In this document: one piece after another, positions 1 through 24,398 of the stretch
Layout: the number at the start of each line of letters is the position of its first letter
How positions within the stretch are numbered: position 1 is the first letter of the stretch
From: a virus
DNA: 24,513 nt
IMG/VR virus record: IMGVR_UViG_3300045738_000315
Location: 1-24,513 of that record
Direction: 5' to 3' (one strand)
Made by a program: the position numbers and the translations under genes
Notes under the pieces: generated by a model
What the model saw: the letters and a program-made list of their open reading frames with translations, nothing else
What the model was told of the DNA's origin: nothing
The model's database searches: none

Positions 1-119
1 TCCTGAGCCAATACAATTTTTTCATCTGCTGGCTTTACTTGTCCTAAATCAACTAATGTTTTGCCGATTATGAACAAGCATTTCTTTTCAAGCTCCCCTT
101 TATTTATTTCCTTTATCAT
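1..119 (-). CDS. Unknown small phage protein, 3'-truncated by window edge
   Basis: An open frame begins with ATG at 119-117 and runs off the left edge without a stop, giving 39 full codons. The visible peptide starts MIKEINKGELEKK and is charged with a short hydrophobic patch (CLFIIG). The start lies inside the end of the preceding gene (20-base overlap in another frame), in keeping with the tightly packed operon. I do not recognise the family; too little is visible. The absence of stops and the operon position are the only support. Confidence 0.5.
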   Translation of the reverse strand, partial: MIKEINKGELEKKCLFIIGKTLVDLGQVKPADEKIVLAQ

Positions 120-324
120 TATAATAATTATTATATTGATATTTATCATTATATTTATTTTTCATATAATCAACAATGGATGTATGCTCTTCTATTAAAT
201 TTTCAATCCAATCTTTTAAAATATCTAATTTCACTAATGTATCTAAATTTTTATATTGATCTGTTTTGATAAATTTAGCTTCTCCTGTATTAATATCCAT
301 TTTAAACATATCTACTTTTTTCAT
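100..324 (-). CDS. Hypothetical 74-residue early protein
   Basis: Small soluble protein, rich in Lys, Asp, Asn and Tyr, with a polar Tyr/Asn-rich C-terminus (DKYQYNNYYNDKGNK). No motif, signal peptide or membrane segment is visible and I do not recognise the family. The ATG overlaps the TGA of the upstream HTH gene as ATGA, the coupling seen throughout this operon, which supports both the start and that it is a real gene. Confidence 0.6.
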   Translation of the reverse strand: MKKVDMFKMDINTGEAKFIKTDQYKNLDTLVKLDILKDWIENLIEEHTSIVDYMKNKYNDKYQYNNYYNDKGNK

Positions 325-992
325 TGTGTTTTATTTTTAATTTGATATTTTTCTAATAATTGTTCTGCTTCCCTTTGGCTTTGCAGATGCATATCTATTT
401 TGCTCATTGTTTGCTTTGGATTAAAACCTTTTTCCCTTTTTGCCCAAATTTTTAATCTTCTGCCAATTTCAAAAGTGGGTTGATATTGCCACCTCATTCT
501 TTTATTTGTTTTAGATTTCGGCTCGCTCCAATAGTCATAGAAGCTCTCTAACATACTTTTAGAATAATTACAACTAAACACCTCATATTTAAAATTTTCG
601 CTTATAGAGAGTGTAGTTTTGTTAATTCTTTCTTTTATTACTTCTTTACTTATTTGTATGCTGTTTTCCGTTATCGGTTTATCCGTTATCGGTTTATTGG
701 GCTTCGGTTGCTCAAATACAAAATAATCATATCCAACAAACTTTCCCTTATCTCTTATTTGGATTCTTTCAATATACCCAGCTGCAATAAGTTCTTTAAA
801 GATATTTCCAATAGATCCTCTCCCCTCCATTGATGTGCTAACTATTCCATTTATGCTTAAATCCCAATCATTAGGTAAACTTAAAAGATAAGCCATTAAT
901 CCTTTTGCCTTTAAGCTGATCCCTTTATTCTTAAAAAGTTGGTTGCTTATTGTAGTATAGTTCTTATTCTTTATTACTCTTATTACTTCCAT
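321..992 (-). CDS. Replication-initiator-like helix-turn-helix protein
   Basis: 223 residues. The N-terminal ~90 residues (YTTISNQLF...SLKAKGLMAYLLSLPNDW...GRGSIGNIFKELIAAGYIER) match the winged-helix pattern at the start of many phage and plasmid replication initiators and DnaD-like replisome organisers, where it binds DNA at the origin. A linker at ~95-112 contains a short repeat (KPITDKPIT). The C-terminal ~80 residues (FYDYWSEPK...MRWQYQPTFEIGRRLKIWAKR) form a helical, basic module common in Bacteroidota phage proteins of this type. The start ATG lies 29 bases inside the end of the Mom-like gene. The HTH assignment is firm; the replication role is inferred from the family and from DnaA-like and SSB-like neighbours. 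Confidence 0.72.
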   Translation of the reverse strand: MEVIRVIKNKNYTTISNQLFKNKGISLKAKGLMAYLLSLPNDWDLSINGIVSTSMEGRGSIGNIFKELIAAGYIERIQIRDKGKFVGYDYFVFEQPKPNKPITDKPITENSIQISKEVIKERINKTTLSISENFKYEVFSCNYSKSMLESFYDYWSEPKSKTNKRMRWQYQPTFEIGRRLKIWAKREKGFNPKQTMSKIDMHLQSQREAEQLLEKYQIKNKTQ

Positions 993-1752
993 TTCTTTTC
1001 AAATATTTTTTAGATTTTTCTTTTAGTATCTGCTGCATTATTCTTTTTTCTTTACATTTTATCCCATAAACATAAGCATATTTCCCCCTCTCCTTTTTTA
1101 CTTTTGTGAACCCCTGCTCTATTAATTTATCAACTTCCACTTTAATTTGTTCTTTGGTTGCTTTTAAGTTTGGATTTTTTCTTCTAGCAAATCCTGTTAC
1201 TGCTCTTGTGTGGGGGGAAATACTACAATCTTTTCCATTTTTATCTCTCCATACCTGCGTTTTAATTTTTCCTAAAAAAGTCCAATTACACGCTTGATAA
1301 ATTGTTCCAATCTCCCCAGCATCATAATCAGAATATGCTACTACAAAAATAGGTTTTGATTTGTTGAATAATAGTTTACAAGCAGAAGAAACTAAAAAAC
1401 TTCCAGCCCAATTAGGAGCAAAATGAACACAAGCACCTCTACCTAAGCACCAAGCTGGATAACTAAATAAGGAATATTTGCCACTTATTTTAGTGTTATG
1501 AAAGCACGCTGCACCTACTAAATAATTGTCAAAATAAAGCCCAACAAATTTAGTGAAATTAATAGGTAAAGTCCCAAGCCATTCATATTTCAGGATTAAT
1601 GGTAATGCTTCTTTTCTGGTTATTTCTTTTATAACTGCATTATCTTTGGATAAATCAACATTTTCCCAATACCTACCAAAAAGATTATTCACCTCAGTTA
1701 TTTCTAACTTCTCTCTCATGGTTCTTTGATGGCATTTAAGCACTTCCATCAT
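964..1752 (-). CDS. Mom-like DNA modification protein (GNAT-type acyltransferase)
   Basis: 262 residues. The core carries a run typical of phage Mom-family proteins: KYEWLGTLP at ~55-63, then a GNAT-like strand (FVGLYFDNYLVGAACF), then LGRGACVHFAPNWAGSFLVSSACKLL and AYSDYDAGEIGTIYQACNW. In phage Mu, Mom converts adenine in DNA to a carbamoylmethyl derivative and so protects phage DNA from host restriction. By analogy this protein may hypermodify phage adenines; this is inference from motif resemblance. The C-terminal ~70 residues are highly basic and could bind DNA. The start is one of two adjacent ATG codons (1752 and 1749) overlapping the upstream TGA. It lies in the early operon, which suits modification of newly replicated DNA. 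A general GNAT acetyltransferase is the alternative. Confidence 0.62.
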   Translation of the reverse strand: MMEVLKCHQRTMREKLEITEVNNLFGRYWENVDLSKDNAVIKEITRKEALPLILKYEWLGTLPINFTKFVGLYFDNYLVGAACFHNTKISGKYSLFSYPAWCLGRGACVHFAPNWAGSFLVSSACKLLFNKSKPIFVVAYSDYDAGEIGTIYQACNWTFLGKIKTQVWRDKNGKDCSISPHTRAVTGFARRKNPNLKATKEQIKVEVDKLIEQGFTKVKKERGKYAYVYGIKCKEKRIMQQILKEKSKKYLKRNGSNKSNKE

Positions 1753-2120
1753 TCAAATATTGATAATTGCCCCATGCCTCCAAACATCATGGTTTGCCCT
1801 TCCAAAGCATTTAAAACTCTAACTTGACTTGCAACCCTTTGCTTCAAGCTAATTATACAGCCCTCCAGCTCCTCTAAAGTTCTGGCTACATAGTACCCCT
1901 TGCCGCAACTACAAAGCCCGTAAATCAAGTTATTCACTCTTATGTAATTTATTATCTTTCTCAATCTCGCTCCATTTATTTTCATTTTCTCGCAAACAAG
2001 AGTTCCACTTACTGCCAAATCTGCGCCAACTCTTAAACTTATTCCTTTCATAATAATGGGTACTAATTCCAACTCTGATTCGGTTAACTCGTATGTTATA
2101 TGTTCAAAATCGTTTATCAT
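1749..2120 (-). CDS. Small winged-helix-like phage protein with clamp-binding-like C-terminus
   Basis: 123 residues. The pattern ELELVPIIMKGISLRVG...ARLRKIINYIRVNNLIYGLCSCGKGYYVARTLEELEGCIISLKQRVASQVRVLNAL is one I associate with small proteins of Bacteroidota phages and prophages. The middle looks like a winged helix (helix, RKIINYIR recognition-type helix, then a beta hairpin at GKGYYV), followed by a C-terminal helix. The last residues read GQLSIFE, close to the bacterial beta-clamp-binding consensus QL(S/D)LF. The start is ATG overlapping the DUF3127 gene's TGA (ATGA). A DNA-binding role is inferred; the exact function is unknown. Confidence 0.6.
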   Translation of the reverse strand: MINDFEHITYELTESELELVPIIMKGISLRVGADLAVSGTLVCEKMKINGARLRKIINYIRVNNLIYGLCSCGKGYYVARTLEELEGCIISLKQRVASQVRVLNALEGQTMMFGGMGQLSIFE

Positions 2121-2419
2121 AATTCAAATGGATTTTCCTCATCAGATTCACTAACAGGGCGGATCATATCGCAATTAACATTAGTATAATATTTTCCATT
2201 CCATTCCCTGCTTTTAATAGTTAATTCCAGCTCAACAGTTTCTCCCTCTTTTCGGTTAGCCATTAAACTGATATTATCGTTAAAAATTGAGCAACATAAT
2301 TCATCCTTAAAAGGAGTAAATTGATTTACTATAAAATTTTGCTTTCTCCAAGTTGTACCGCTTTTACTTGTTCCTGTTTCAATTTCCAGGATTTTTTTAA
2401 TTCGGGCTTTGATCTTCAT
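2117..2419 (-). CDS. DUF3127 family single-stranded-DNA-binding-like protein
   Basis: 100 residues with the DUF3127 pattern: KIKARIKKILEIETGTSKSG-TWRKQNFIV near the N-terminus, a strand pair around CCSIFNDNI, and a GETVELELTIKSREWNGKYYTNVNCDMI region. The family is predicted to adopt an OB fold and is thought to act in ssDNA binding. The C-terminus ends acidic (SESDEENPFEL), much like the acidic tip with which bacterial SSB recruits partner proteins, though here two residues follow the Pro-Phe. It sits directly after the DnaA-like gene (ATGA overlap), which fits a replication role. No other SSB is visible in the window, so this is the best SSB candidate. Confidence 0.75.
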   Translation of the reverse strand: MKIKARIKKILEIETGTSKSGTTWRKQNFIVNQFTPFKDELCCSIFNDNISLMANRKEGETVELELTIKSREWNGKYYTNVNCDMIRPVSESDEENPFEL

Positions 2420-2868
2420 AATTTATATTGGTTTTTAATTATTTTTGATTGTTCCTCCCATCTTTTGTCTCTCAATAAATTGTTAAGCTCCCTTAATTCT
2501 CTATTTAGATATTTTGCTTGAGTTCTTTTTATGCTTAATAATGTAGATAAAACATCAAAATCATTTGCCGTTATTATGAACTTATGGTATTTATTTCTTA
2601 AAGGTTTTTCATATTGTAATAAACCCCTAAACTTTTTACATTGATATATAGCAGTAGCATGATGTAACCCCTTTACATAATCTTTGATTCTATCGTATGG
2701 CATTATAATCTCATTCCTTAGATAATAAATAAAAAACCGCCTTGCATCTATTATATTTCGTTTTCGGTTAATGTTATTTTCTAAATTAAAAACATCAACT
2801 TTAAACATTTGGCATAGAATTTTCTTTGCCTTTTCAACTCTTTCATCCCTTAATAATTTTTTATCCAT
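2416..2868 (-). CDS. DnaA domain IV-like HTH protein without AAA+ domain
   Basis: 150 residues. Residues ~35-80 (RKRNIIDARRFFIYYLRN...YDRIKDYVKGLHHATAIYQCKKF) match the C-terminal DNA-binding domain IV of DnaA. That domain has an Arg-rich helix, a HTH and the signature G-x-x-H-x-T; here it is GLHHAT in place of the usual GRDHTT. No Walker A or B motif or AAA+ domain is present, so the protein can bind DNA but not act as a full initiator. Residues ~105-150 form a charged helix, possibly a coiled coil. It may mark the phage origin or compete for DnaA boxes; both are inference. The start ATG overlaps the nuclease stop codon (TAATG). Confidence 0.72.
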   Translation of the reverse strand: MDKKLLRDERVEKAKKILCQMFKVDVFNLENNINRKRNIIDARRFFIYYLRNEIIMPYDRIKDYVKGLHHATAIYQCKKFRGLLQYEKPLRNKYHKFIITANDFDVLSTLLSIKRTQAKYLNRELRELNNLLRDKRWEEQSKIIKNQYKL

Positions 2869-3593
2869 TAGTATTCTATATTTATTACATTTGGCTTTAT
2901 AGCCCTTTTAGAGCATTGTAGCGGACACTTCTCACAAACATTGTAGTCAGTACTTGGCAGGGGGGTAAAGTCGCTTAAATCGGCTCTAAATCGTTCAATG
3001 GTATTTCGGTAATCTTCAAGCGTTTCCTCTGTTATATCTATGGATATGAATTTTACCCATCCGCTTTTACCAAAAACTAAATAGAAAAAAGGTAAATACT
3101 CCCCATGCATTCTATAATACATCTCCACATAATGCACCGCCTGGCTGTAATCCTTTAGCTCCAAATCCTTTCCCCAAGCGTATGGATTCCAACGGCAGCT
3201 CTCATCCTCTCTCGTTCCTGTATATTTTAAATCAAGTATTGCCATCTCTCCTTTATAGGTAATTAAGGCATCAGGATGCCCTATTAAGTCCTCATGCTCC
3301 CATTCAGGTTGCACTTCCAAAATCTTAATATCTAAATTATCAATAGTTTTTTTTGCGGATTCAATCAACTTATCCAAATCCCTTTGCTCTTTACTTGGGC
3401 TTCCATTTTTCAGTTTGGGTAACTCGTAAATTTCGCCTCCCCTTGTTGAGCCGATAACATATTGCTCAAAATAAAGTCCATGAAGCATTGCTTTAGTTGG
3501 ATAGGAACGCCAGCCATTCAAATAACTTTCCTCCCAAAGTATATCACAATACTCAGGATCGTTAAAACTTCTTATAGCTGATTGACTTATCAT
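2868..3593 (-). CDS. PD-(D/E)XK (Cas4/RecB-like) nuclease
   Basis: 241 residues. The catalytic core is visible as GHPDAL (D108), a strand, then ILDLKYTG (D121-x-K123), followed by a helix with a Gln-Tyr motif variant (KDYSQAVHYVEMYY). This is the arrangement of Cas4/RecB/lambda-exonuclease-type nucleases. Four cysteines are placed as in iron-sulfur members of this superfamily: Cys16 near the N-terminus and Cys220, Cys223 and Cys227 near the C-terminus. It may process DNA ends in phage recombination or replication together with the annealing-type protein encoded upstream. The ATG start follows a short gap after the 56-residue gene. The nuclease fold is well supported; the Fe-S cluster is inference. 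Confidence 0.8.
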   Translation of the reverse strand: MISQSAIRSFNDPEYCDILWEESYLNGWRSYPTKAMLHGLYFEQYVIGSTRGGEIYELPKLKNGSPSKEQRDLDKLIESAKKTIDNLDIKILEVQPEWEHEDLIGHPDALITYKGEMAILDLKYTGTREDESCRWNPYAWGKDLELKDYSQAVHYVEMYYRMHGEYLPFFYLVFGKSGWVKFISIDITEETLEDYRNTIERFRADLSDFTPLPSTDYNVCEKCPLQCSKRAIKPNVINIEY

Positions 3594-4574: not shown

Positions 4575-5111
4575 TTAGTTAATATAAGTTAAAAAAAATG
4601 GTTGTTTTATTCTACCCTGTGCATAATCTAAGTTAATGTTAAACTCACTTTCAATTTCATTGCACATACTTTTGTATTTTTCAAGATAAATAGCTGGATC
4701 AAGCGTATTAAAGGCACGCTCAATAAAAAACTTTAAACCCTTTCCGCTTGGGCTATCCATTACAAATAATGCCTTATCTTTTATTTTGATTTTAAATCGC
4801 TTGATTTCATTTTCGGTATTGTCGCTTAAATCTACATCAAATGGTTTAATAGGGTTTTCTTTTATTATACCTTCATTTAAGTTGTATTTGAATTTATTAA
4901 AAAGTGCAACAGGCAATCTCTTTTTAGCGTTATTGTATCCCCAGCTTTTATATTCAAAAATTCTTACTCCTTTTATTTGTTCTTTAAGTTGTTTTGATTT
5001 CATCTTATTTATTAACTCCTTAAAAGTAAGATAATAAATAGGGGGGTTATCCAATCCCTTTTTTAGCATTATTCCGTGTGGATAATAGCTTATTAATTTT
5101 TCAGTTTTCAT
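4575..5111 (-). CDS. BT4734/VirE N-terminal-like protein (primase-associated domain)
   Basis: 178 residues resembling the BT4734-like N-terminal domain found before primase/helicase modules in Bacteroidota mobile elements. Visible family features are KKRLPVALFNKFKYN (~63-77), an acidic position corresponding to the usual LDFD (PFDVDL), the PSGKGLKFFIE strand (~121-131, usually SPSGxGLK), and a final RIKQPFFLTYI in place of the usual 'SRxCFxSYD'. It is only this domain: no primase catalytic core or helicase is fused, so it may be a stand-alone DNA-binding or primase accessory protein. It is the first gene after the promoter-like element at 5144-5179, with an untranslated leader of roughly 25 bases. 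Confidence 0.65.
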   Translation of the reverse strand: MKTEKLISYYPHGIMLKKGLDNPPIYYLTFKELINKMKSKQLKEQIKGVRIFEYKSWGYNNAKKRLPVALFNKFKYNLNEGIIKENPIKPFDVDLSDNTENEIKRFKIKIKDKALFVMDSPSGKGLKFFIERAFNTLDPAIYLEKYKSMCNEIESEFNINLDYAQGRIKQPFFLTYIN

Positions 5112-5142: not shown

Positions 5143-5199
5143 GCAAACATAAGTAAACTTTTTTAACAATTGTGCAAAACATTAGTAAACTTTATTAAC
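5143..5199. repeat. Pair of ~25-bp imperfect direct repeats overlapping the promoter
   Basis: Two copies, at 5143-5167 and 5174-5199, share GCAAA-CAT-AGTAAACTTT-TTAAC with about three differences and are offset by 31 bases (about three helical turns). A further short copy of CTTTATTAAC lies at 5202-5211. They cover the -7 and -33 positions of the candidate promoter. They could be operator sites for a phage regulator or short iterons for a replication initiator; the sequence does not decide between these. Confidence 0.6.
5144..5179 (-). promoter_or_regulatory. Bacteroidota-type promoter candidate for the early operon
   Basis: On the minus strand, TATGTTTG at 5151-5144 matches the Bacteroidota -7 consensus TAnnTTTG exactly. 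A TTTTG lies at 5179-5175, 23 bases upstream, at the long end of spacings reported for Flavobacterium promoters. Transcription would start near 5137, shortly before the ATG at 5111. It lies between the late-operon terminator and the first replication gene, exactly where a promoter is needed. The assignment is by consensus only. Confidence 0.5.
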
Positions 5200-6339: not shown

Positions 6340-6750
6340 TTATCGGTTTTTAATTATTAATTCAATTTTATCAAAACTTCCTAAATCGTACATCAATCTA
6401 TAAAATGCTTTTCGGCTATCTCCTACAAAGTTTAATGCTCTTGTATTGCCTAATAAAATGCAGCCCCTTGAATTCTTGGGATAATTTCCGATATGCATTA
6501 AAATAAATCCTCTATCTGCAACATCTAAAATATGTAAATGCTCATATTTATATTTGCTTTTATCTGTAAATCTTTTAACTACTTCATAAACTCCTTTAGG
6601 TATGCATGAGATTCTTTTTTTATTATCATCCCAAGGCAGCTCTAAAGTATGCCCATAAAATTCTCCATTCAGGTAAAGTTTGCCTATAACTGACTTATCC
6701 GTAAAAGTATCTCTAATCAATAATAAGCTCGCTTTCGGCTTTTCTATCAT
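6340..6750 (-). CDS. DUF5675 family protein, possible L,D-transpeptidase-like lysis enzyme
   Basis: 136 residues from the ATG at 6750, chosen because family members begin close to this point (MIEKPKASLLLIRDTF). A longer frame from ATG 6804 adds 18 basic residues that look unlike the family. Visible features are GKLYLNGEFYGHTLELPW, CIPKGVYEV, LHILDVADRGFILMHIGNY (H86) and SRGCILLG (C97). A conserved His followed by S-x-G-C is the catalytic signature of YkuD-type L,D-transpeptidases, so a peptidoglycan-active cysteine enzyme is plausible. DUF5675 has no settled function that I know of. Flanking small membrane proteins make a lysis cassette the best reading. Confidence 0.65.
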   Translation of the reverse strand: MIEKPKASLLLIRDTFTDKSVIGKLYLNGEFYGHTLELPWDDNKKRISCIPKGVYEVVKRFTDKSKYKYEHLHILDVADRGFILMHIGNYPKNSRGCILLGNTRALNFVGDSRKAFYRLMYDLGSFDKIELIIKNR

Positions 6751-6819
6751 AATGTTTTTTACTTTTATGAATCTTTTTTTTAATATCCGCCCCCATAAAC
6801 ACATCTCTACTTATGCCTT

Positions 6820-7247: not shown

Positions 7248-10200
7248 TTAACTTGGTACAACTTCCACAATATCGCCACTTGTCATATTAGTCATTGTAC
7301 CATCATTACTGCCTTCCACATCTGTTATAGTAGGGTATTCGGAAGTGCCATCTGGATCTCCCATTCTCCACCAATTAGTTAAATCGCCACTACTTACATA
7401 ATTCCCTGCATCTGTTTGTAAATCCGTTGCTACTCCACTATTATATATTGCAGTTACTTCTGCTGCTGATAGTGTAGTGGCGTTCCACCAAGCTATCTCA
7501 TCTAAATTACCTTCATAATAAAACCCAGCAGCGTTATAAGACGCAAACATTAAAGTTCTTGATGATGGGGTATAGGTTTCTGTATCATTTCTTGTTGCAA
7601 CAGAAACTCCATCAAAATATATTGTAGTAGTTGTTGCTCCTCCCATAGAACCTACTCTATCGAATGTTACTACTATATGATGCCAATTACCATCAGAAAA
7701 ATCATAGGCAGATTTAAGGAATTCAGCAGTAGCTGATCCATTATGTGTAGGCCATCTAACAAGAAAAGTAGTTGAAGTACACATAATATATTGGTACGTT
7801 GTATGCAAGAAAATTGGTACAGAAATTGTATCTGTTGTTTTCATCCAAAAAGACAAACTACCTGTGTCCCAAGTAACTGATCCAGAAGTCATGTAATCAT
7901 CCACTCCATCAAAATCTAATGAATACACATTGCTAAAAGCTGGTGTAGCTGCTCCACCATCTGAGATAGTCCAGCTATCACTACTTATTAAGTTCGCTCT
8001 GGCTGTTGCTGCTGCACCCCCACCTGTATAAATGCTATTGCCAAAATCAAGCGTTAATCCACTTTGAACACTTTGAGCATCCCAAGCAATTAATAAAGCA
8101 TCATAGTTTGCAGTTGATAGTGTTTGCCCTCTCATAAAATTAGTTCCAAAATCTGTTACATCTGCAATATCCCAACTGCTGATATTTTGGTCAAAAGCCC
8201 CTGATGGATTACCATCAAGCATATCCACCATAGTTGTTGCTGCACCTGTATTCCATCCTCCGATATTTTGATTGAAAATTACATTTAGGAAAAAGAGGTT
8301 ATCAAAATTGGTAACGCTACTAACATTCCAAGCACTAATATCTTGATTAAAAACTGAACATTGATAAAAGAATGAATCTAAATTTGTTACTCCTGCCATA
8401 TCCCAAGCTCCACCAATACCTGTTAAATCAGTACAATTATAGAAAGTCCTATTTAAATCAGTAGTATCTAATATAGTTGGTGCATCTGATGCAGTACAAG
8501 TCATGTCTATACAACCATTAAATGCCATACTTTGTGTAATATTCAAATCGCCCCATTGAGAAACTACTCTCATCTTTGCTTTATCTCCTACATCTGCAAA
8601 ACTAAATCCTCTTATTGTTCCTGACATTTTTATAGTGTAGGTGTCCTCTGCACCATAATCATGGGTTATTTCTGTTTGATTATATGTACTAATAATATCA
8701 CTACTCTCATCCCCCCAATCTACCAAAATACTAATAGTCCCATCATCAACTAATGGTAAAACAAATGTATCTGAAGCAGAGCCACTTGCAGTTGTATCTA
8801 TTGTAAAAGTAAAAGGAGTATCTGGTATTACTGTTAAATCAAGTTTAGATGTAGTCATAACCCCTCCTGCTTGTATTTTTATTATCATATCTCCATCATC
8901 TCCTGTTGCTGTTCCATCACTCATCCACATTACTGAATTTCCTTCAATTGGGAAAGCTGCATCTGTACTCCTTTCTGTAAAAGAATATTCGCTAATATTT
9001 ATTGTTCCTCTTGTTTTATGATTAAGTTGCTGATAACTATCTCTTGAATTTATTACTATTTTGCTCCCAACTTCTAATGGTTTTTCAATATCAAGTGATG
9101 TAACGCTAATAGTTGTATCTGTATTTTCTACATCTGCACTTGCTGTGAATTGTTGCCACACTCCATTTCCTGTATTTAAGACATTAAAAATATCTCCTGA
9201 TTTTATAAGTGTATTCTGCTCAAATAAATACAATGTAGTTTCTCCTTCCTCCTGATAGACAATAGGATTCATTGCATCAATTTCCAACTCGGTTACTGTA
9301 CTCCATGATGCAACTCTTGTTCTTAATGAACCCATCATTAATTGTTCCTTAAAAATAGATGATTGTTCTCCCCCTGATAATTTGGCACTTGCATTATTAT
9401 CACTCGGATTGCTTCCTCCTGTTCCTGTTGTTGTTGTTGTTGTAGAAATTCCATCATCATAAGAAACTTGCAGCCATTCGCTATCCCATTCATCCAATAA
9501 AATATTAAAAGTTCCTCTTAATAAATAATAAAACATCTCATCAACAGTATCATGTATTCTGCCAATAGGGTTAATATAAACAGGGCGGCTTCCTGTTCCA
9601 TCATTAATCATCCTATTTGTTTCACTTACAGCAGTAGATAAACTCCATTTGTAATCGGACTGCTGTTGATTAAATAAACGAGCTTCACATAATAGCATAC
9701 CAATACTTTTATTAAAAGTTCCACTTTGTCCATTTCTCCATGCCCCAGCAGCATCAGTATATCCACTATTTATGCCATCAGTCCAAATTAATGATGATGG
9801 CTCTCCCAAAGTTAAGGTATCTCCCCACCAAATATCTTTTACTTTTTGGGTTTGTGTTTCACTCCTTGCTGAATAAACTACTGTATTTATTGCCGTACCC
9901 GCTATCACAGAATTTAAAATGGTATTAAATTGAGAAACAGGATTATTATTTGCATACAAAACATCTGAATAAGTGACTCCTCCTGCCAATACAATACCAT
10001 TATACTCAGTCCCATGCCCCGAAAACACTATTGTTCCCAAAACATTCAGATAAGCCGCTAATGTAAATATCTCAAATTCCCAATCTCCCACAAATGCTGC
10101 ATCTGTTGCTATTTGTTGGCTTAAAATAGTTTGCTGACTTGTTCCAGGTGGGATAGAAAGAACCCCAACATGAGGATGCACATTGTATTGTTGAAAATAA

Positions 10201-11609
10201 TTCCATATGGTTGAACCTTGAGCAATAAAGTAATCGTACCAAACCGCATCCGCTCCCCCTGCTGCTTCATCAGGATAATCCCCCCATGTTGGAGTTAAGC
10301 CGCTCTGAATGGATAAATATTTAGCATTATCCCAATCGGTATCTCCATTAGGCCTTGCTCTTAGTGAAAAATTATACTGATAATCTATTGCATTCCCAGT
10401 ATTGTTAAACTCCAACTCAATATTTACATTAAATCCTCCAAAAGAATCGGCATCACTTATTACTCCCAATGGAGTTGATGTAATGTGATCTCTAAAAGAA
10501 TACCAAGAGCCAGAGTATGGTTGCGGAAATGTTTGGAAATAATTGTTATTTGATATGTTTTCAAGATCAACACTAACCTCCTTTAATTTAGGATAGTAAT
10601 CCCATGTACTTCCAGCTAATTTTTGAAGCCCCCCTTTAAATCCTCCTGCATTTGTTTCAATATCCTGGCTGTATAAACTAAAATGTGTATTGCCTAAATA
10701 ATCTTGACTTGATGAGAATGTTCCATTCCGCTTCCAAATTTGACTATCTATATTTTCAGGATTAGCAAAATCTCCTGTATCTGCTGTATTATATAACTCT
10801 ACTTGAGTAAAATAAAAGGTATTTTTCCAAAAAACAACTCGCATTCCCCACATCTTGCAAAAGGATTCCAATACTTTATATACACTTTTAACTTTGTAAA
10901 GTCCATCTTCCTTTAATTCATAGCCGCCCAACATCTGGCATTGGGTATAAGCTAAGGGGCTTACTGATGGATTGGCTGCTGGATGGTTTTCATACCACCA
11001 ATCAATAGCAGTTGAGAAAGTATAATCACTAACAAATCCATCAGTTGAATCTGAATCAGGAGTATTGCAATATTCCAATATAGTTTTTATCCAATAAATA
11101 AAAGTCTGATAGCCATCTGATATATAAGTATCAGCAGAGGCATAAGGGGAACTTCCTTGAACGCTGACCATATCATAACTTTTCAAAAGCCCAATCCCAT
11201 CAGTAGCACTTAATTCCACTTCATAAGGCAATGATACATCCTCTTTTGAAGATAAATCTATAAGTATATTTCCACTCCATAAAGGAGGATCAGATGTACT
11301 CCCTGTATTCCATATTACAACAGTAGCATCCCCCTCCTCATAAGTTTCCCTTAAATCTTTTATAAAGTTTTTTAAATGAACACCAAAAGCATTATTTTCA
11401 ACAACCAAAGAAATGGAGCATTTTGAAGCCATAATAGGGCTAAATTTTTCCTGCCCCTTTGTATCATATTTTATTTTTACACCTCCACCCCCTATTGTAA
11501 TTGGTATTGGTTGCCCTGAATAGTTTTTGTCAAATATTTTTAGCTTATAAAATCGCCCATTTGAGGAGAAAAATTTAGAGGTATATCTCGTTTTATGTGT
11601 TATTGGCAT
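7248..11609 (-). CDS. Large tail-tip/adhesin protein with PKD-like, DUF285 and LamG domains
   Basis: 1453 residues, starting immediately after the tape measure stop codon (TAAATG). Residues 1 to ~720 resemble tail-hub proteins of Bacteroidota siphoviruses, with a beta-rich N-terminus and repeated W/Y-rich blocks, and no enzyme motif is visible. A low-complexity linker follows (six Thr at 723-728, then Gly/Ser/Asn). At ~930-1020 there is a PKD-like domain (VDWGDESS, then HDYGAEDTYTIKMSG). At ~1030-1165 there are BspA-type DUF285 repeats, with Trp at 1069, 1094, 1119 and 1146, about 25 residues apart (pattern FNQDISAWNVSSVTNFDNLFF). At ~1226-1400 there is a LamG/concanavalin-type domain (SLDFDGVDDY, GNWHHIVVTFD, IYFDG, GNLDEIAWWN). 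The C-terminal half probably binds host surface glycans or proteins. Confidence 0.75.
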   Translation of the reverse strand: MPITHKTRYTSKFFSSNGRFYKLKIFDKNYSGQPIPITIGGGGVKIKYDTKGQEKFSPIMASKCSISLVVENNAFGVHLKNFIKDLRETYEEGDATVVIWNTGSTSDPPLWSGNILIDLSSKEDVSLPYEVELSATDGIGLLKSYDMVSVQGSSPYASADTYISDGYQTFIYWIKTILEYCNTPDSDSTDGFVSDYTFSTAIDWWYENHPAANPSVSPLAYTQCQMLGGYELKEDGLYKVKSVYKVLESFCKMWGMRVVFWKNTFYFTQVELYNTADTGDFANPENIDSQIWKRNGTFSSSQDYLGNTHFSLYSQDIETNAGGFKGGLQKLAGSTWDYYPKLKEVSVDLENISNNNYFQTFPQPYSGSWYSFRDHITSTPLGVISDADSFGGFNVNIELEFNNTGNAIDYQYNFSLRARPNGDTDWDNAKYLSIQSGLTPTWGDYPDEAAGGADAVWYDYFIAQGSTIWNYFQQYNVHPHVGVLSIPPGTSQQTILSQQIATDAAFVGDWEFEIFTLAAYLNVLGTIVFSGHGTEYNGIVLAGGVTYSDVLYANNNPVSQFNTILNSVIAGTAINTVVYSARSETQTQKVKDIWWGDTLTLGEPSSLIWTDGINSGYTDAAGAWRNGQSGTFNKSIGMLLCEARLFNQQQSDYKWSLSTAVSETNRMINDGTGSRPVYINPIGRIHDTVDEMFYYLLRGTFNILLDEWDSEWLQVSYDDGISTTTTTTGTGGSNPSDNNASAKLSGGEQSSIFKEQLMMGSLRTRVASWSTVTELEIDAMNPIVYQEEGETTLYLFEQNTLIKSGDIFNVLNTGNGVWQQFTASADVENTDTTISVTSLDIEKPLEVGSKIVINSRDSYQQLNHKTRGTINISEYSFTERSTDAAFPIEGNSVMWMSDGTATGDDGDMIIKIQAGGVMTTSKLDLTVIPDTPFTFTIDTTASGSASDTFVLPLVDDGTISILVDWGDESSDIISTYNQTEITHDYGAEDTYTIKMSGTIRGFSFADVGDKAKMRVVSQWGDLNITQSMAFNGCIDMTCTASDAPTILDTTDLNRTFYNCTDLTGIGGAWDMAGVTNLDSFFYQCSVFNQDISAWNVSSVTNFDNLFFLNVIFNQNIGGWNTGAATTMVDMLDGNPSGAFDQNISSWDIADVTDFGTNFMRGQTLSTANYDALLIAWDAQSVQSGLTLDFGNSIYTGGGAAATARANLISSDSWTISDGGAATPAFSNVYSLDFDGVDDYMTSGSVTWDTGSLSFWMKTTDTISVPIFLHTTYQYIMCTSTTFLVRWPTHNGSATAEFLKSAYDFSDGNWHHIVVTFDRVGSMGGATTTTIYFDGVSVATRNDTETYTPSSRTLMFASYNAAGFYYEGNLDEIAWWNATTLSAAEVTAIYNSGVATDLQTDAGNYVSSGDLTNWWRMGDPDGTSEYPTITDVEGSNDGTMTNMTSGDIVEVVPS

Positions 11610-21580: not shown

Positions 21581-23115
21581 AATATTAAAAGCCCTCGATT
21601 ATCGTACACACTATCACCCTCTTGCTCCTCACTCATGTACTCCGCCAATGCACAAATACAAGCCACAACTCCATCAATTTTCTCCTTTGATTTTTTCTTA
21701 CTCGGCTTATGGTTATCGGCTGCATCAATTTCAAGCTGCACATTTCCCATCATCCATCTTAGTACAGGATTGCCATCATGCTGTATTTCTTTTGATAAGA
21801 TGAGCTTCTCCATCATTTTTGTAGGAGCGGATAAACTCGCAAATCCCTGGCCTAAAGGTGACATATTAGCACCATCTGCCATTAGATCAATGGTAATTTG
21901 GCTGGCATTCCAACGATCGTACGCAATACTTTGAATCCTATATTTTTTTGAAAGCTCATTTATCTTTTTTCTTACAAAAGAATAATCAGTAACATTGCCA
22001 GGAGTAGCAATCATATACCCTTGACTTATCCAACTCATGTAGTCCACCCCATCTCTATCACTCCTTGCTTTAGCGTTATCTTCAGGAACAAAGAAATAAG
22101 GTTTTATTTTAAAGAGATTATCTACCTTAAACAATAAAACAAAAGCCGTTATATCTCGGGTGGTGGCCAAATCTAATCCGCCCCAGCATTCCATATTACT
22201 TAAATCTCCAAGCTCCCCCTCACACTCCATCCACTCCTTATCTCCCATCCATTTAGTTTCATTAGTTGTCCAGATGTTTAGATGCAATCTTTTAAAAGTA
22301 TTCATGTAGCTGGGAATATCCATTGCCTTTTTACTTTCCCTTTTCATGTAGTCCTTTCTTAAACTTACTCCATAATTGGGATTACATTTTTTCCAAGTGC
22401 TTTCCAATGTGACATCATCCTCATCATTTGCTTCATAAATTACAGGTAAAAAACTATCATCAGTTATGCTACCATCTAAAACCTTTTTTGCATAATCATA
22501 AACCTCATAACAGATACTATTCTTATCATATCCAGCAGTTGTAATGGCTATTACTAATGGCTCTCTCCTGCTTCCTGTTGATGTTAAAAGCGTATCCCAT
22601 AAATCTCTATTTGGCTGGGTATGTAGCTCATCAAAGATTATGCAATTAGCATTAAAGCCATGCTTTGTTTTACTATCCGAACTTATCGCCTGAAAGAAAT
22701 TACCCTTGCTTTCATTTACGATTGAGTTTCTTAAAACCTTTGCTCTGCTTCTTAACTCAGGATTGTTTAATACCATTCCTTTTGCTATCTCAAAAACTAT
22801 TCCTGCTTGGCTTCTATCTCCAGCAGCAGCATAAATTTCTCCTCCTCTTTCACTATCTGCAAAAAGCATAAGCAAAGATAGACTTGCCGCCCATGTGGTC
22901 TTTCCGTTTTTTCTGGGTAGCATAATAAAGGCAGTTTTATATTTTCTAAATCCTGTATCTTTATGCTTCCATCCAAATATCTTTTTAGTGATATCATTTT
23001 GCCATCCCTCTAATAATAAAGGTTTGCCAGCAAGCTCTCCTTTGGTATGAGTTACAAATTTAGAGATGAAGCTGGTTGCTCTTTCTGCCGCCTCTTTATC
23101 AAAATAATACTTCAA
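21577..23115 (-). CDS. terL: Large terminase subunit
   Basis: 512 residues. The packaging ATPase has Walker A PRKNGKT (P67-T73; Lys72 binds phosphate) and Walker B CIIFDELHT (D162, E163). The nuclease domain begins with GGLDLATTRDITAF (D315), then AYDRWNASQI and DGVVACICALAEYM, with the metal-binding Asp pattern of P27/HK97-like TerL. It cuts and pumps DNA through the portal. The start is TTG at 23115, overlapping the methyltransferase TGA (TTGA); no earlier ATG fits, and family members begin this way (FDKEAAERATSFISKFVTHTKGELAGKPLLLEGWQ). The length is normal. Confidence 0.94.
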   Translation of the reverse strand: MKYYFDKEAAERATSFISKFVTHTKGELAGKPLLLEGWQNDITKKIFGWKHKDTGFRKYKTAFIMLPRKNGKTTWAASLSLLMLFADSERGGEIYAAAGDRSQAGIVFEIAKGMVLNNPELRSRAKVLRNSIVNESKGNFFQAISSDSKTKHGFNANCIIFDELHTQPNRDLWDTLLTSTGSRREPLVIAITTAGYDKNSICYEVYDYAKKVLDGSITDDSFLPVIYEANDEDDVTLESTWKKCNPNYGVSLRKDYMKRESKKAMDIPSYMNTFKRLHLNIWTTNETKWMGDKEWMECEGELGDLSNMECWGGLDLATTRDITAFVLLFKVDNLFKIKPYFFVPEDNAKARSDRDGVDYMSWISQGYMIATPGNVTDYSFVRKKINELSKKYRIQSIAYDRWNASQITIDLMADGANMSPLGQGFASLSAPTKMMEKLILSKEIQHDGNPVLRWMMGNVQLEIDAADNHKPSKKKSKEKIDGVVACICALAEYMSEEQEGDSVYDNRGLLIL

Positions 23116-24398
23116 AATAGTTTAGTTTGGCTATCCATTATTCTTTTATCTTCTATTGCTTTGTTTATTCTTGCTTTCGCAATTTTGCAATAGTCCTTAT
23201 CTAAATCTATACCTACAAAATTAAACCCTTCTAATGCACACGCCTTTCCTGTTGAACCTGAACCCATAAAACAATCTAATACTATTCCGTCTTTAGGTGT
23301 TACAAGTCTTACTAAGTATCTCATTAAGTCAGTAGGTTTTACTGTTGGATGGTTGTTTTTGTTTTTAGTTTGAATTTCAACTCTATCACTACATCTACAT
23401 TTATCTTTTTGGGATAAGCCAATAATTGGCTTGTTGCAATTGCCACACCTCCTTGTAGTATTTCTTCCACAATCTTTGTCTTCAAAATCTTCTAACCCTT
23501 CATTCCTGTCTTTCTTACTTGCTTTTGCACAATAGAAAAATCTACTTGCATTTCCTTTGTCAGTAAAATGTTTCCCTGTGGAATTATATGGTCTATTATT
23601 ATAGGTTACCCCCTCTTTTGTATTACCTTTATCACTATCCTTCCATCCACTTGTAGTATAAGGAAACAAATCTTTTACTTCATTACTTCCATCATGTATA
23701 AAGTTAGCAGGGAATCTGCCTTCCGTATGTTGTTGTCCTCTGTTACTACCATTCATATTACTATCATAACCAACCTTTCCGCTACCAATATTTAAAACAT
23801 CATCTGTTTCAATCCTACACGCATCTATATTAATTCCACCTACTCCATTCTTTAATACATTATTAGCGACAGTTCCTTTAAAGGGCTTACGAGCCATTGT
23901 AATAGGTTCTAAGGCAGGTTTTAAAGCTGTTCCCCACCCCTCCCATTCAGAAGTTCCTTTTGTTATTGTTCTTTCTCCAATTTTAGCACCATCAACACCA
24001 CCACCCATTGAGTTGCTTGGTTGCATTAATCTTTCTTCAGTTCCTAAAACTTCTCTTTCATTTCCCTGCAATTTATCAATAGCTTTACCTATGTTATGAC
24101 TTTTAGGAAAACCTGAACCATAAACCCAAGCAATCATATCTCTAATTTCAAATCCTGCATCTTCTATATTTACTGCCATTCTGTGTTGTGTTCTAGTTCC
24201 TGCAAAACTTAAAAGATAGCCACCCTCTTTTAATACTCTAAAGACCTCTGTCCAAAGTTCTACACTTGGTACATCATAATCCCACTTCTTACCCATAAAC
24301 GAAAGTCCATAAGGGGGGTCTGTAACTACTGAATGAAAGTAATTATCAGGAAAGTTTTTTAATTCCTTTATACTATCTCCATTTAATATCTTAATCAA
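23112..24398 (-). CDS. DNA methyltransferase, DPPY beta type (N6A or N4C)
   Basis: 428 residues. The order of motifs is circularly permuted as in the beta group: catalytic DPPYG (residues 27-31), then a long central region with the target-recognition part, and the AdoMet-binding motif DCFMGSGSTG (375-384) near the end, preceded by NHPTVKP. A Zn-ribbon-like insertion has Cys318, Cys321, Cys334 and Cys336. Methylation of adenine N6 or cytosine N4 in phage DNA is expected; DPPY alone does not separate the two. It is probably an orphan methylase, as no endonuclease partner is seen. The start is TTG, eight bases inside the small terminase gene. The C-terminus reads DSQTKLF. Confidence 0.88.
   Translation of the reverse strand: MIKILNGDSIKELKNFPDNYFHSVVTDPPYGLSFMGKKWDYDVPSVELWTEVFRVLKEGGYLLSFAGTRTQHRMAVNIEDAGFEIRDMIAWVYGSGFPKSHNIGKAIDKLQGNEREVLGTEERLMQPSNSMGGGVDGAKIGERTITKGTSEWEGWGTALKPALEPITMARKPFKGTVANNVLKNGVGGINIDACRIETDDVLNIGSGKVGYDSNMNGSNRGQQHTEGRFPANFIHDGSNEVKDLFPYTTSGWKDSDKGNTKEGVTYNNRPYNSTGKHFTDKGNASRFFYCAKASKKDRNEGLEDFEDKDCGRNTTRRCGNCNKPIIGLSQKDKCRCSDRVEIQTKNKNNHPTVKPTDLMRYLVRLVTPKDGIVLDCFMGSGSTGKACALEGFNFVGIDLDKDYCKIAKARINKAIEDKRIMDSQTKLF

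Follow-up and report, generated by a model that had tools for sequence, protein, structure and literature searches.

Our analyses of the window, by which we mean the whole 24,513-nt stretch of DNA under study (a 24.5-kb viral contig with terminase, portal, capsid and tail genes), indicate that its minus-strand gene at 964–1752 is, judged by sequence and predicted structure, a member of the Mom family, within a clade that carries Glu-Trp where Mu-type Moms carry His-Tyr. The product is probably a GNAT-fold, CoA-donor-dependent modifier of DNA bases with an anti-restriction role, encoded in an exchangeable slot. The data below directly support its place in the family and in the clade, its predicted fold and residue pattern, the exchange at the slot and the fusions of its relatives, and we infer its CoA donor, DNA substrate, modified-base product, anti-restriction role and timing. 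The new element is the Glu-Trp clade itself, which has hundreds of members in viral metagenomes and was seen in two isolated phages.

964–1752, minus strand: mom-like gene of the Glu-Trp-type Mom clade (262 aa, ATG start); key residues H8 Q9, E57 W58, R105 G106, C108, H110, S118, D142, E147, G149, Y152, N156, Y225 and Y250-K252

The plus strand is closed across this interval. A first-pass annotation of the DNA had proposed a Mom-like gene here, and profile searches bear that proposal out. The protein scores 66.2 bits for the Pfam Mom family (PF25680), whose cut-off is 27.1 (E = 4e-18; model positions 3–194 of 202), and matches PHROG 1384, 'Mom-like', with E = 3e-18; at these values the resemblance is not chance. 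Both sequence blocks named in the annotation, GRGACVHFAPNWAGSFLVSSAC and AGEIGTIYQACNW, are present in the ORF. No other Pfam GNAT family matched the protein at E ≤ 0.1, and a sequence profile of ten Mom-like proteins, among them Mu Mom and that of the window, found the solved structure of Mu Mom (PDB 8BV8). An AF2 model for which 40 relatives were used alongside the window protein (pLDDT 88.7, pTM 0.82) is of high confidence across most of residues 1–250. Structural comparison of this model came out in favour of the annotation as well: the top PDB structure in Foldseek was 8BV8 (E 1.1e-9, TM 0.58/0.68), ahead of all other GNATs, with tRNA(Met) cytidine acetyltransferase as runner-up and further GNATs behind it, from E 1e-4, and the best match in a viral structure library was 'Mom' (2e-12). 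Structural hits confined to unrelated GNATs, which the annotation had named as its refutation, were thus not what we obtained.

Mu Mom (gp55) and the window protein are only 18% identical, but have in common the fold, the Pfam family, the position of a serine and an R/D/Y/N core. The depositors' title of 8BV8 describes an 'inactive mutant S124A', and the alignment equivalent of Mu S124 is S118 of the window protein, which is invariant in both the Glu-Trp and the Mu-type clades. Mu R111, D149, Y159 and N163 correspond to R105, D142, Y152 and N156, and the residues common to both proteins comprise R105, S118, D142, G149, Y152, G161 and Y225. Two differences stand against these similarities, namely the change from His-Tyr to Glu-Trp and the replacement by Glu of Mu R154, at which most Moms have His, and the window protein has in addition an N-terminal AHQ...LFG.W module that Mu Mom lacks. 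Both proteins have a basic C-terminus ending in Y-x-K. The very basic C-terminus noted in the first-pass annotation is real, with a net charge of +12 over the last 60 residues, but its description as untypical has to be dropped since the corresponding Mu Mom tail is more basic (+15) and the clade median is +11.

Two sequence styles were apparent in our first alignment, which comprised ten Mom-like proteins. In place of the His-Tyr pair of the Mu-type clade the window protein has E57-W58. Glu-Trp occupies these columns in all 66 aligned members of its clade, whereas all 78 aligned Mu-type proteins have His-Tyr there (H58-Y59 in Mu, 241-aa numbering). The column of E147, which precedes the invariant Gly of GxxYQAxN by two residues, is His in Mu-type proteins (Arg in Mu, Lys in Y8A) and Glu in 66/66 clade members, an invariance that is partly by construction as E147 lies inside GEIGTIYQ, which together with EWL served as a clade-finding scan pattern. 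The Glu-Trp invariance is not due to such selection, because 66 of the 80 clade loci lacked a match to the EWL pattern and all of these carry EW; an artefact of the scan was therefore rejected. Nor is the contrast between EW and HY pattern-made, since most Mu-type proteins were found by a pattern containing neither motif. Invariant or nearly so among the 66 clade members are R105 G106, C108, S118, D142, G149 T150, Y152 Q153, Y225 and Y250-P-K-R, with H110 kept in 63, as well as Q9, R13, LFG and W29 of a clade-specific N-terminal module, AHQ...R...LFG.W. We take the His-Tyr column to belong to the active site, a label that draws on its invariance and on the Mu mutants H48/Y49 (GTG-start numbering). 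DruA carries a motif, GTxYxAANW, that is similar to one of the clade, and a kinship with it is conceivable.

In a quick maximum-likelihood tree a branch with an SH-aLRT value of 99 sets the Glu-Trp clade apart, and on this evidence the clade is monophyletic. It is large and mostly composed of uncultivated phages. The window protein as a single query retrieved no relative from the viral contigs, and an alignment of three proteins (that of the window with those of phage f2b1 and Vibrio phage 501E54-1) was needed, which retrieved 463, the best six being 52–56% identical to the window protein. Prokaryote genomes yielded only 12 clade loci in about 85,000, some of which are perhaps prophages or contaminating phage contigs. 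Among the annotated phages examined, only f2b1 and 501E54-1 belong to the clade; the Listeria, Proteus, Vibrio K412 and Synechococcus examples among them are of the His-Tyr type. The f2b1 and 501E54-1 proteins, annotated as hypothetical, share the RGAC, YSD and GE[IL]GT motifs with the window protein (37 and 32% identity, respectively), and both phages are large. Unlike the window gene in its operon, the f2b1 gene has ribonucleotide reductase genes on either side and that of 501E54-1 lies near genes for an endonuclease subunit and thymidylate synthase.

The neighbourhood of the mom-like gene in the window is a run of overlapping minus-strand genes.

100–324, minus strand: 74-aa ORF, last of the overlapping run
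321–992, minus strand: winged-helix replication-initiation/helicase-loader-like protein (PHROG 4707, replication initiation, 2e-19; HTH_36 match of 8e-5, below the Pfam cut-off)
1749–2120, minus strand: PHROG 2113 conserved phage protein, directly upstream of mom with an ATGA overlap
2117–2419, minus strand: DUF3127/SSB-like protein (Pfam and PHROG matches)
2416–2868, minus strand: protein with a DnaA C-terminal (DNA-binding) domain (8.5e-9)
2868–3593, minus strand: PD-(D/E)XK/Cas4-like nuclease of the replication module (weak matches)
4575–5111, minus strand: BT4734-like/primase-helicase N-terminal-like protein, at the head of the presumed operon (weak matches)
5144–5178, minus strand: weak candidate for a promoter of the Bacteroidota type (TTTG-N-TANNTTTG), upstream of the first gene

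The DnaA-like and SSB-like neighbours that the first-pass annotation had listed are thus both present. Overlaps within the run measure 1–4 nt, except that mom and the winged-helix gene share 29 nt (mom and its upstream neighbour share 4 nt), and these overlapping gene ends argue for a single transcript that would carry the replication genes and mom. The candidate promoter was the one site found in a scan of the window in which 1.97 were expected, which is not above chance. In Mu, mom is a late gene activated by C and its translation is controlled by Com (PMC4461284, PMC6483171), a double control of a protein whose premature or excess production is toxic (PMC4461284). Whereas Mu mom lies with com at the right end of the genome, the window gene sits in an overlapping replication operon instead of under a Mu-style late-gene and Com arrangement, and no com-like ORF overlapping or partnering it was seen. 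From this operon position we infer that it may be expressed earlier than Mu mom.

The place occupied by mom in this operon appears to be an exchangeable slot. Sister phages were found through their terminase, and ten of their records hold the PHROG 2113 gene, which in relatives is the constant left-hand boundary of the slot. In seven of the ten the slot is empty, the PHROG 2113 gene being followed directly by the replication protein, and in three it is filled: in L174 by an N6_N4 methyltransferase (2e-25), in L175 by a C5-methyltransferase-like protein (2.7e-12) and in L181 (record G037) by a Mu-type Mom (Pfam Mom, 4e-18). The last stands in the same slot of the same operon, adjoining the same PHROG 2113 gene, but differs from the window protein in being of the His-Tyr type (NHYSKKP...FDRMW, with the RMW motif), and its gene runs into the contig end. 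Together with the window this makes four occupied slots, all of them with DNA-modification genes. In two of the seven slot-empty records, L176 and L177, the replication gene is immediately followed by an N6_N4 methyltransferase. Short C5-methyltransferase-like proteins (~216 aa) were also noticed at L175:3704-4360, L176:1621-2271 and L174:1511-2161; two of them have an SSPPCPTHS motif, and their match to the Pfam model is confined to its first third.

1742–1761, minus strand: left slot seam AATATTTGAATGATGGAAGT, PHROG 2113 3' end/mom start
985–1007, minus strand: right slot seam AATATTTGAAAAGAAATGGAAGT, mom 3' end/downstream gene start

In the window, the seam AATATTTGAA..ATGGAAGT thus occurs on both flanks of mom, and the slot-empty records L172 and L173 have one copy only, the end of the PHROG 2113 gene joining exactly onto ATGGAAGTAATAAGAGTAATAAA, the start of the replication gene. 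Because of this seam join, the last nine residues of the mom-like protein (NGSNKSNKE) are the 5' end of the downstream replication gene read in another frame. The repeat may be a mark of exchange, but is suggestive rather than proof of an exchange mechanism, as random pairs of 40-mers from the region matched equally well in 31 of 4946 trials.

Among the immediate neighbours of 42 representative clade members, 69 of 83 are on the same strand and 46 abut the gene; recognisable immediate neighbours include primase/helicase, DnaB, RusA, ParB-like, methyltransferase and terminase small subunit genes, and NinG, DNA polymerase I, ERF and AAA ATPase genes lie nearby. Mu-type Moms can stand beside replication genes too, as in Geobacillus PK3.6 and Roseobacter CRP-902. 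The replication-operon position on which the first-pass annotation remarked is real, but is no peculiarity of this phage, recurring in the clade and in some phages with Mu-type Moms. A neighbour-based link to DNA modification is not general, because an N6/N4 methyltransferase was found in only 4 of 49 clade-member records, a weak co-occurrence. Glu-Trp Moms are fused to an N6_N4 methyltransferase in two Acidobacteria loci (L188:6001-7932 and L190:5938-7929) and to a GIY-YIG nuclease in a Bacteroidales contig (L189:5986-7725), and these fusions are possibly stand-alone modification or restriction proteins. In jumbo phages a Mom is fused to a restriction-like endonuclease (PMC7824862). This Mom shares with the window protein a domain used in DNA modification; the window mom has no fused nuclease, and the Glu-Trp fusions differ in carrying methyltransferase or GIY-YIG domains and in being on bacterial contigs.

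By homology, the mom-like protein would bind a CoA-type donor in its GNAT cleft, and the core of S118, R105, D142 and Y152 would transfer a group from it to a DNA base. Phage DNA marked in this way would resist host restriction endonucleases, as in Mu, where Mom-modified sites resist the restriction enzymes of the host (PMC4461284, PMC6483171). Since mom occupies a slot within the replication operon, the enzyme would be produced together with the replication proteins and be active during copying of the DNA, unless it is a weaker enzyme or under some other control. Between the PHROG 2113 and winged-helix genes, related phages swap DNA-modification genes, or have none, at conserved seams. Three points weigh against this explanation: the changes from His-Tyr to Glu-Trp and from His to Glu at the putative active site could reflect use of another donor, base or substrate, co-occurrence with N6/N4 methyltransferases across the clade is weak, and the slot evidence comprises only four occupied slots.

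As His-Tyr is replaced by Glu-Trp at the presumed active site, the Mu product, and with it the modified adenine suggested in the first-pass annotation, cannot be assumed for the window enzyme. The exact Mu reaction, yielding N6-carbamoylmethyl-adenine with Glu-Trp as a functional substitute for His-Tyr, is a narrower form of our explanation and a serious possibility that we would place somewhat below an even chance. It fits the shared family and predicted fold, the retained Ser, Arg, Asp, Tyr and Asn of the core, and the Mu-type Mom in the same slot of a sister phage, which is expected if the two are interchangeable. However, a residue pair that is invariant in each clade yet different between them, a second site changed from His to Glu and a clade-specific N-terminal module point to altered chemistry or specificity. 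Slightly less probable, in our view, is that the clade represents a second kind of Mom that makes a different, undescribed DNA modification, is common in uncultivated aquatic phages, and is swapped with methyltransferases and a Mu-type Mom at a dedicated slot of the replication operon. An ordinary acyl (e.g., acetyl) transfer to a nucleobase amine of DNA or RNA, instead of carbamoylmethylation, seems unlikely to us. The second-best structural neighbour, the tRNA(Met) enzyme, speaks for it, and if His-Tyr serves the unusual part of the Mu reaction, its absence here would agree with that part having been lost; Karambelkar in 2020 reportedly described the Mu Mom chemistry as iron-dependent. The match to TmcA is nevertheless far weaker than that to Mom and covers the GNAT core only, and slot exchange and fusions tie the clade to DNA methyltransferases and not to RNA genes. 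Among products, that of Mu is the likeliest single reading, plain acyl transfer comes next, and other chemistry is possible.

Two further alternatives question whether the gene encodes a working Mom at all. A decaying or inactive remnant is suggested by Leu in place of P251 in the YPKR end and by the derivation of the C-terminal residues from the start of the downstream gene, but is very improbable given a full-length ORF that retains the clade-invariant core residues and a predicted structure that is confident over most of residues 1–250. An unrelated GNAT acetyltransferase acting on a protein or small molecule and merely resembling Mom could be imagined since the fold is common to GNATs, ~800 PDB chains matching the model at E ≤ 10. 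We rejected this alternative as hardly tenable: the Mom profiles are strong and stand alone among the Pfam GNAT families, the E-value for Mu Mom is five orders of magnitude better than that for any other structure, and the Mom-wide Ser, Tyr and YxK positions are retained.

Among exotic anti-restriction modifications Mom is the textbook example, with a reaction mechanism that is unsettled. With the essential Ser kept and His-Tyr swapped, the Glu-Trp clade constitutes a natural test of the role of His-Tyr. In addition, its members may mark phage genomes with modified bases that are currently annotated as 'hypothetical' or lumped with Mu Mom, and the slot provides a clean example of the exchange of DNA-modification genes at one operon position.

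23112–24398, minus strand: separate N6/N4 DNA methyltransferase (Pfam and PHROG matches), adjoining terminase

This methyltransferase, the second DNA-modification gene of the phage, has a long insertion, its residues 22–408 aligning to a 221-position model. Elsewhere in the window, the minus-strand gene at 7248–11609 encodes a tail protein of 1453 aa that combines DUF285 (BspA-like repeats) with a C-terminal LamG/concanavalin-like domain and is a candidate receptor-binding part, and a DUF5675 protein (6340–6804, minus strand) beside a small holin-like ORF probably marks the lysis region.
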